Assembly (NCBI GenBank): GCA_030683605.1
Contig: JAUXPL010000048.1
Location: 1-53,224, forward strand
Direction of reading: 5' to 3'
Origin: Candidatus Altimarinota bacterium
GTDB lineage: Bacteria; Patescibacteriota; Gracilibacteria; BD1-5; UBA6164
DNA length: 53,224 nucleotides
The notes under the pieces are model-generated. The model saw only the letters and a program-made list of their open reading frames with translations. It was not told the origin of the DNA and did no database searches. Below, in pieces: positions 16,881 through 20,674 of this stretch. Positions within the stretch are counted from its first letter, which is position 1. Each line of letters starts with the position of its first letter. The position numbers and the translations under genes were made by a program.

Positions 16881-17008
16881 TTACTTAATTTTTGATTTAT
16901 ACTAAACATTTATAAAAGAAACTAAATAGGCATAATCTAAATGTTTATTAGATTTAATAAAAAAAATTTGCATTTAATATATTTTATATAAAATTAACTA
17001 TATTAAAG

Positions 17009-17222
17009 GCATTTGAGTGGCTATCAACCACAAGCTGGAGGAAGAAAAGTATTTAAAATACATAATTAGAACCTCTCGGAGTCGCAATTCTCCGTAATAA
17101 AAATAAAATCAAGTATGGCTTTCAGGTGGTAACTTCCTTCTATATTAATATAAGATGGACCGAAAGTATAAAATATAAATTTATTCAATATTTAGAATAA
17201 ATTTATATTTTATACTTTTTTA
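17009..17222 (+). promoter_or_regulatory. T-box-like tRNA-sensing riboswitch upstream of ileS, with attenuator
   Basis: This non-coding leader is richer in G+C than its surroundings. Hairpin GTGG-CTATCAA-CCAC (17017-17031) carries ATC, an isoleucine codon, in its loop, a candidate specifier on a very short Stem I. Further hairpins are 17049-17061 and CGGAG/CTCCG (17077-17094). CTTTC-A-GG (17119-17126) pairs with CCGAAAG (17160-17166), leaving the bulge TGGTAAC (17127-17133) before an upper helix (17135-17159); this is the layout of a T-box antiterminator, and TGGT could pair with the tRNA ACCA end. The GAAAG strand overlaps the left arm of a perfect 24-bp terminator (17163-17186 with 17195-17218, then Ts), so the two folds exclude each other. 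The bulge differs from the canonical TGGNACC. Uncharged tRNA-Ile would favour read-through into ileS (inference). Confidence 0.7.
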
Positions 17223-17238
17223 TTTTTTATAAAAATTT

Positions 17239-17472
17239 ATGAATAAAACTGACCTATACAAATTATATTTATCTAAACTTGAAGAATCACTTATGAGTGA
17301 TGATATAGATTGAGTAAATTATATTCTTGAATATTTATATACAAATAATTTACCTGAAGATCAAATGGATGCTATGGATCATGTATTGCATGAAGCAACA
17401 CTTTATTCAGAGTTATGAGAAAATGAATATAAGGAAGAAGCTTTAAAAATAATAGAAAAATTTAAAGGGTAA
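17239..17472 (+). CDS. Small acidic helical protein of unknown function
   Basis: 77 residues, not recognised. It is rich in Glu, Asp and Leu, predicted all-helical, with LPEDQMDAMDHVLHEATLYSE in the middle. It starts 18 bases after the riboswitch terminator and lies 52 bases upstream of ileS with no terminator between, so it should be under the same tRNA-sensing control. It contains two UGA glycine codons. No known domain can be assigned; similar small acidic proteins of CPR genomes are a possibility. Confidence 0.7.
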
Positions 17473-17524: not shown

Positions 17525-20500
17525 ATGAAAAATTTCGAAAAAGTAAATCCAAAACAAAGTTTTCCTAAATTAGAAGAAAAAATATTAAAGTTTTGGGATG
17601 ATAATAATATTTTTGAGGAATCAATAAATATTAGAAAAGATGCAGAAGAGTTCAATTTCTATGATGGTCCCCCATTTGCAACTGGTACTCCTCATTATGG
17701 TCACATATTAGCAGGTACATTAAAAGATGTAATACCTAGATACCAAACTATGAAAGGTAAACTAGTTACTAGAGTTTTTGGTTGGGATTGTCATTGATTA
17801 CCTATAGAAAATATAGTTGAGAAAAAACTAGAAATTTCAGGAAGAGATGATATATTAAAAATATGAGTACATAAATTCAATGAAGAATGTAGAACTAATG
17901 TACTTACTTATACTGATGAATGGAAAAAAACTGTATCTAGAATGGGTAGATGGGTAGATATAGATAATGCATACAAAACTATGGATACAAGTTTCATGGA
18001 ATCAGTTTGGTGGGTATATAAATCACTTTATGATAAATGATTGATTTATGAATGACATAGAGTAGTTCCATACTGTCCTAGATGTACTACTCCCCTTTCT
18101 AATTTCGAAGTAAATCAATGATATAAAGATAAACAAAGTAAAACATTAACTGTTAAATTCAAAGTATTAGGAACTGAAAATAAATATATATTAGCTTGGA
18201 CTACTACTCCTTGGACTCTTATGTCAAATCTATGATTAGCTGTTTGAGCTGATATAATGTATAGTGAAATATTAGATAAAAATACAAATGAGACTTATGT
18301 ATTAGCAAGTGATAGAATCAAAGATTATTACAAAAATGAAGATGATTATAGTCAAGTTAGACAATATAACTGATCTTGTCTACAATGAATAAAATATGAA
18401 CCAATTTTTCCAGATTTCAAAACTCAATTAGTTGATATGTGAGCTCTATTATGATCAGATAATAAGCTATGAAAAAATGTCTATACAGTAGTTTTATGAC
18501 ATCATGTAACTACTGATACAGGTACTTGAATAGTTCATATTGCACCTGCTTATTGAGAAGATGATTACATTATCTGAAATGAAAATTCTCTTGGTTTCGT
18601 ATGACATATTGATGATAGCTGAAGAACTACAAATACTCTAAGCGATAACTGAAAATATGTATTTGATTATAATGAAGAAGTAATTCAAATATTAAAAGAT
18701 AGATGAGATATAATAAAAATATCTACTATTGACCACTCATATCCTCATTGTTGGAGATGTGATACTCCTCTTATATATAGATGAATATCAGCTTGGTATG
18801 TTGCTGTTGAAAAAATAAGAGACAAAATGGTTGAAAATAATCAAAAAATTAATTGGACACCAGATATTATAAAAAATGGTAGATTCTGAAAATGGGTAGA
18901 AAATGCTCGTGATTGGAATATATCTAGAAATAGATACTGGTGATCAGCAATTCCTGTATGGCAATCTGAAGATAAAAAAGAAGAAGTATGTATTGGTTCT
19001 GTAAAAGAAATGTATGAATTAAATAAAGAATTCTGACAAATAAAAGAAGAAAATGGTAAATTTTTCTATACTAATACAAACCAAGAAGTAGATATACATA
19101 AACACTTTGTAGATGAAATATATTTAAGTCATCCTAAAACATGAAGTAAGTTAAAAAGAATACCTGAAGTACTAGATTGTTGGTTTGAATCATGAGCTAT
19201 GCCATATGCAAGTAAACACTTCCCTTTTGAAAACTCTGATAACTTCAAATTCCCTGCAGATTTCATCGCAGAAGGTATTGATCAAACTAGATGATGGTTT
19301 TATACCTTACTAATTCTTTGAACTGCCCTATTTGAAAATACTCCATTTTTAAATGTTATAGTAAATGGTACTGTACTAGCAGAAGATTGACATAAAATGT
19401 CTAAATCAAAGAAAAACTACCCTGATCCACATTTAATTTTTGATAAATATGGTGCTGACGCTATGAGATTTTATTTAATGAATTCTCCAGTAGTTGAAGC
19501 TCAAGATTTCAGATTTGCTGAAACTTGAGTAGAAGAAATAGTTAAAAAAGTAATATTACCTCTTTGGAATACATATTATTTCTTTACTACTTATGCAAAT
19601 ATAGATAATTTTAAACCAAATTGAAATAAAACTAGAAATAATAATCTAGATAAATGGTTAATTTCTGAATTAAATGAATTAACTAAGGAAGTTACTAATT
19701 GATTTGATTCTTACAAATTAAATGAAGCTGCAAAACCAATAGTTAAATTCATGGATAATCTAACAAATTGGTATATCAGAAGATCTAGAAAAAGATTCTG
19801 GAAATCAGAAAATGATTGAGATAAAATTGAAGCATATGAAACGCTATATTTTACATTAGTAGAAATAACTAAGATTATTGCTCCATTTATGCCTTTTATT
19901 TCTGAACATATCTATAAAGAATTAACTTGAGAAAAATCTGTTCATTTAACTAATTTTCCAATTTATAATTCTAGTTTAATAGATGAAAAATTAAATGCAG
20001 ATACTGATAAAGTACAAAAAATAATTACACTATGACTTGCATGGAGAGCAAATCAAAAAATCAGAGTTAGACAACCACTTAAATCAATTACTATTACTGA
20101 AAAATTAGATAATTATTATGAAGAAATAATAAAAGAAGAACTAAATATTAAAGAAATAATTATTGTTGATGGAAATAGTTTAGCAAAACAAATATGTAAA
20201 CCAAATGGTAGAGCTATTTGACCAAAATTCTGATGAGATGTTAAGTTCATAATGTCAGAAGCAAAATCTGGAAATTTTGAAGTATTAGATAATTGAAATA
20301 TAAAAGTTTGAGAATTTGTACTTGAAGAGTGAGATTTTGAATTAGTATTTGAATCTTGAGATGCTTGATCACTTATTGAAGCTTGATTTTGAATGGTTAT
20401 ATCTATGGATAAAAATATAACTGATGAATTAAAACTTGAATGATTTGCCAGAGATTTAGTTAGACATATACAAGAAGCTAGAAAAGAAGCTGATTATAAT

Positions 20501-20674
20501 GTAGATGATAGAATAAAAGTAAATATTTCTTGATTGGATGAAGTTATAAAATTATTTAATAATAATATTGAAACAGAGACATTATCTAATATTGTTGAAA
20601 GTATTGAAAATGCTGATTTAGAAAAAGAAATAGAAATTGAATGATTAAAATTAATACTTAAAATAAAAAAATAA
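17525..20674 (+). CDS. ileS: Isoleucyl-tRNA synthetase
   Basis: 1049 residues, full length. It charges tRNA-Ile. The class I HIGH motif is HYGH at residues 57-60 in [19 protein letters not shown], and KMSKS is at 624-628. Other blocks include [13 protein letters not shown], the WTTTPWTL editing-domain motif, a '[13 protein letters not shown]' zinc-like Cys pair, and the anticodon-binding domain with [15 protein letters not shown]. The sequence resembles the eukaryote-like type 2 IleRS found in some bacteria. The first 90 residues have no UGA, then UGA becomes frequent. It is the main gene behind the T-box-like leader. The HAD gene begins one base after the stop. Confidence 0.97.

Follow-up and report, generated by a model that had tools for sequence, protein, structure and literature searches.

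An ileS leader with a short Stem I in a code-25 bacterium of the Gracilibacteria, very probably an isoleucine-specific T-box riboswitch acting on transcription

The window, meaning the whole stretch of 53,224 nucleotides that was analysed, carries an ileS gene whose product is an isoleucine--tRNA ligase of ordinary length (1049 aa), preceded by a small open reading frame for which a family search gave no convincing family and, further upstream, by a structured leader (Table 1). The whole element occupies 17005-17229; the initial annotation had set its limits at 17009-17222, where the leader indeed lies, and the start is now moved to about 17005, the basal helix of Stem I. The promoter-like match ahead of it belongs to a kind whose count is not above chance, and the sister leaders are repeatedly preceded by TTTGC-like and TATA-rich stretches. 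Placement of the host in the CPR, also proposed initially, agrees with the names of its relatives, as related ileS loci fetched by name were mostly deposited as Candidatus Gracilibacteria and one as Candidatus Altimarinus.

Table 1 Features of the ileS leader and of the genes that follow it, in window coordinates.
Feature	Coordinates	Strand	Basis
Candidate promoter, TTTGCA - 16 nt - TAAAAT	16967..16994	+	inference
Probable T-box leader, tRNA-sensing domain and antiterminator	17005..17173	+	models R1 and R2 match 17005-17173; covariation
Short Stem I	17008..17036	+	basal helix GGC 17008-17010 / GCU 17034-17036; kink-turn-like AUUUGA / AA; specifier hairpin
Putative specifier AUC, complementary to anticodon GAU of tRNA-Ile	17023..17025	+	AUC in ileS-type, AAC in aspS-type leaders
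Stem II with S-turn-like motif (AGAA ... UUAGA)	17037..17076	+	helix covaries
Stem IIA hairpin and F-box-like CCGUAA (17092-17097)	17077..17097	+	helix covaries
Antiterminator, helices A1 and A2	17118..17167	+	A1 and A2 covary
Putative T-box bulge UGGUAAC and U; UGGU complementary to ACCA-3' of tRNA-Ile	17127..17134	+	sequence; tRNA-Ile ends ACCA in genome G000
Intrinsic terminator, 24-bp stem and U-tract, exclusive with antiterminator	17163..17229	+	sequence, folding, survey of leaders
77-aa ORF (code 25), conserved between Ile T-box and ileS	17239..17472	+	homologs in 24 leader loci, window included
ileS, isoleucine--tRNA ligase (code 25)	17525..20674	+	TIGR00392, 972 bits

The hairpin at 17017-17031, GUGG-CUAUCAA-CCAC, holds the AUC codon in its loop, just as initially annotated. 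The basal helix, RGC/GCY, is compensated across the class by A-U, G-C, C-G and U-A pairs; an enclosing helix UUUGA/UCAAG, part of the two earliest models, was discarded for its many uncompensated C-A mismatches in distant relatives. The S-turn signature, as the motif is defined in PMC7583486, is represented by AGAA in 124 and by NUAGA in 125 of 127 leaders, and an F-box-like CGUNA by about 88 of the 127 (the F-box of Nocardia farcinica being CCGUCA; PMC7583486), both elements being recognisable as sequence motifs. No hairpin that could serve as Stem III with its RRRxG ... AA purine string, an element called indispensable in the T-boxes studied (PMC7583486), is evident between the F-box and the antiterminator, where a conserved purine-rich AAAUYAAGUA stands instead, and a covariation search of the leaders for the IIB pairing of a IIA/B pseudoknot brought up no convincing candidate.

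The antiterminator CUUUC(A)GG ... GGACCGAAAG spans 17119-17166, with UGGN at the 5' edge of its bulge, adjoining helix A1. Initially described as seven bases starting with UGGU, this bulge does open with UGGUAAC at 17127-17133 and comes to 8 nt once the next unpaired U is counted. Sister leaders carry UGGUACC or UGGCACC, plus U, so that the A of UGGUAAC in the window is a local variant; the bulge UGGUAAC, initially taken as a possible sign of a divergent class, is insufficient by itself to mark one, since close sisters carry UGGUACC.

Downstream, the arms 17163-17186 and 17195-17218 pair perfectly over 24 bp and are followed by a U-tract. As had been noticed at the outset, this terminator and the antiterminator are mutually exclusive, because AAAG at 17163-17166 is common to both. 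The fold of the whole leader is the terminator (-52.6 kcal/mol, z -5.3), and the fold without the 3' terminator arm contains the specifier hairpin, Stem II, the IIA helix and the antiterminator. Since this antiterminator-state fold is no stabler than those of shuffled sequences (z -0.1), the proof must be comparative. A terminator-like hairpin follows downstream in 112 of 125 leaders, and in 105 of these its start falls within the antiterminator's 3' strand; shuffled sequence yields 23.

Nine leaders, found by reading upstream of ileS, were aligned without any structure, and 14 pairs changed on both sides compared with 5.6 in shuffles; sliding the structure lowered pairing from 94% to 31-56%. 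With the refined structure, changes on both sides were seen in 24 of 28 pairs among 67 leaders and in 26 of 28 among 60 further leaders, with 98% and 95% of cells paired against 28-55% in slid versions; the model was used in fitting both of these alignments (A2 and A3), which are biased in its favour, whereas the nine-leader alignment was not fitted to it. Covariation far above the shuffled and shifted controls thus establishes a conserved leader structure. In the related ileS leaders, whose alignment the initial annotation had proposed as a check, the antiterminator helices covary and both AUC and UGGU are conserved.

Covariance models were built from the nine leaders (R1) and from the 67 (R2). 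While ileS is present in all 48 genomes of the family, R1 matches 45 of them, many with two copies, the window's own genome having the ileS copy only in this search. At E <= 0.01, R2 matches 66/77 genomes of the order, 82/288 of the class and 71/380 sampled from the phylum, and it finds the leader in 16 of the ileS loci retrieved by name.

In the second copies the specifier loop reads AAC (Asn) and the bulge UGGC, and aspS is the gene downstream. Among leaders with an aminoacyl-tRNA synthetase identified downstream, all 52 that combine AUC with UGGU precede IleRS and all 39 that combine AAC with UGGC precede AspRS, counts that are not independent, as the leaders share ancestry and the switch may be a few evolutionary events counted many times. 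Exceptions are AAC with UGGU before AspRS (L083), where the bulge would form a G-U pair with the tRNA, GAC (Asp) with UGGC before AspRS (L110), GAC with UGGU before an AspRS of nondiscriminating type (L159), and a small number of ileS leaders that are weak or align poorly; the specifier loop of L165 reads AAC. Genes for tRNA-Ile(GAU) and tRNA-Asn(GUU) are present, the window genome's own tRNA-Ile(GAU) among them. In each of the six genomes in which a tRNA-Ile gene was read it ends in ACCA, and tRNA-Asn ends in GCCA in seven genomes; UGGU fits the former and UGGC the latter, which gives the discriminator match that the bulges require. This joint switch of specifier, bulge base and downstream gene is, at the level of sequence, the decisive test of T-box identity, and it bears out the initial proposal of an isoleucine-specific T-box with a short Stem I in a code-25 CPR bacterium, along with the covarying helices, the conserved AUC and UGGU and the ACCA end of tRNA-Ile. 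A ribosome-mediated attenuator for isoleucine, working through a leader peptide, would likewise place mutually exclusive hairpins upstream of an amino-acid-related gene; it is nevertheless exceedingly improbable, as a single Ile codon is found, in the loop of a covarying hairpin and not in a run, the flanking sequence varies as RNA helices do, and the AAC/UGGC variant before aspS would be left unexplained.

The class II D/K/N enzymes of the window's genome comprise AspRS and LysRS with no AsnRS among them, and for this reason its AspRS probably charges tRNA-Asn too. GatC is encoded in 11 of 11 genomes tested. The same logic of indirect charging would explain the Asn codon before aspS in the relatives.

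Some Ile leaders precede operons starting with ilvA or a threonine synthase-like gene. One such gene, the first after its Ile T-box (L140:277-2127), encodes a protein resembling threonine synthase that carries a LeuA allosteric domain at its C terminus; a RidA-like gene and ileS come next. Within the catalytic part of the IleRS at L339:63-5261 (-) in genome G005, Pfam identifies whole inserted enzyme domains (NUDIX, serine hydrolase and histidine phosphatase), and long or split IleRS frames likewise occur in G032, G020, G002, G031 and G038; inteins, considered as the cause of the split frames, were set aside in view of these Pfam domains. Free-standing genes for NUDIX, MazG, serine hydrolase and inosine/xanthosine triphosphatase-like proteins, partly the same enzyme types as the IleRS inserts of G005, lie between the Ile T-box and ileS in five loci of sister genomes (L058, L062, L063, L118 and L119).

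A search with the Rfam model RF00230, also proposed at the outset, gave no match in the window, where Rfam at E <= 10 yielded chance-level matches only; RF00230 matches five class-level relatives at the coordinates of R2 with 30-46 bits (E 2.6e-7 to 2.5e-3), below its gathering cut-off of 93 bits. Some of these relatives keep the canonical GGUGGUACCGCGG, whereas the window, with UGGUAAC and an unpaired U, departs from the 7-nt UGGNACC bulge of the model. That the leader is an ordinary intrinsic terminator or attenuator resembling a T-box by chance would suit the missing RF00230 match and the unremarkable stability of the antiterminator-state fold, but the covariation, the joint change of specifier, bulge and gene, the tRNA ends and the RF00230 matches in relatives refute it and leave it a negligible probability.

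The leader is therefore read, with high confidence, as an isoleucine-specific T-box riboswitch that would control transcription of the 77-aa ORF and ileS. Its conserved structure, the agreement of specifier, bulge, gene and tRNA, and the exclusive terminator are direct observations on these leaders, and by analogy with the T-box literature tRNA binding, charge sensing and antitermination are likely to accompany them. The nascent leader would fold a short Stem I whose apical-loop AUC pairs with anticodon GAU of tRNA-Ile, a pairing that the S-turn of Stem II would brace. With uncharged tRNA-Ile, the ACCA end would pair with UGGU in the bulge and stabilise the antiterminator, the 24-bp terminator would be blocked and RNA polymerase could read into ileS; charged tRNA could not hold the bulge, so that the terminator would form and transcription would stop.

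Four T-box classes have been distinguished, of which class III has a short Stem I, an apical-loop specifier, an obligatory Stem II and mostly translational control (PMC10482949). Because the nearest architecture is that of this actinobacterial ileS class, and since R2 matches just upstream of ileS in several Actinobacteria, weakly (E 0.0015 to 0.6), a T-box acting on translation, with the hairpin as a sequestrator or a chance terminator, deserves weighing. It is very unlikely given the long perfect stem with its U-tract in the window, the position of that U-tract upstream of the first start codon, and the terminator-like hairpins recurring across the leaders and mostly sharing the antiterminator strand. 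Transcriptional control remains the preferred reading.

T-boxes have been described mainly from Firmicutes and Actinobacteria. A survey of 2008 listed them in Firmicutes, Actinobacteria, Chloroflexi, Deinococcus-Thermus and two Proteobacteria only (PMC2494555), and no report of a T-box in Gracilibacteria, Patescibacteria, Parcubacteria or CPR was found in the open-licence literature, subscription papers aside. To that extent the initial statement that none had been described in Gracilibacteria stands, although T-boxes are not absent from the CPR: at E <= 0.01, RF00230 has matches in 96 of the 287 genomes sampled from the phylum, nine of them above the cut-off. T-boxes in CPR are thus visible to the standard model, and the short form described here mostly is not. 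Other RF00230 T-boxes of the phylum fit the Rfam model better than the present leader form, some above the cut-off; those at L240, L243 and L242 include some before genes resembling tyrS and proS by sequence.

It appears somewhat more plausible than the contrary that the Gracilibacteria possess a T-box class of their own, combining a short elbow-free Stem I with transcription termination, lacking Stem III, carrying an 8-nt bulge and having broadened its specificity from Ile (ileS and ilvA operons) to Asn (aspS). The elbow motif is held to be dispensable in translational T-boxes and essential in transcriptional ones (review, PMC7583486); if the proposal is true, a transcriptional T-box can work without that contact to the tRNA elbow, and the short form is no actinobacterial speciality. 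A compact "translational" architecture joined to a terminator makes the need for elbow contact in co-transcriptional decisions testable. That a form missed by the standard Rfam model is conserved in most genomes of a family whose members are recoded and ultrasmall suggests that tRNA charging is sensed there, and the Asn-type leaders ahead of aspS hint that indirect Asn-tRNA synthesis is regulated.

With reference to known systems, the leader resembles class III, as in ileS of Nocardia farcinica and Mycobacterium tuberculosis (PMC10482949, PMC7583486), in its short, covarying Stem I hairpin (17017-17031) with no room for a tRNA-elbow motif, its apical-loop specifier, kink-turn, Stem II S-turn signature (AGAA/NUAGA), F-box hairpin, UGGN bulge and ileS target. 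It differs from that class in having a terminator, with terminator-like hairpins in 112/125 leaders, in place of sequestration of the ribosome site, in the 7-nt specifier loop of the window compared with 5-6 nt and the 8-nt bulge, in the additional Asn-specific form before aspS, and in belonging to another phylum. With class I and RF00230, of the Bacillus subtilis tyrS type, it shares the layout of transcription antitermination, the UGGN antiterminator bulge, the S-turn and the F-box, and it differs from them in that a long Stem I and a double T-loop motif are absent and a Stem III is not evident. As judged from sequence, the leader is a T-box by its functional features and a strict member of neither class III nor RF00230, its architecture being that of class III and its predicted output that of class I.
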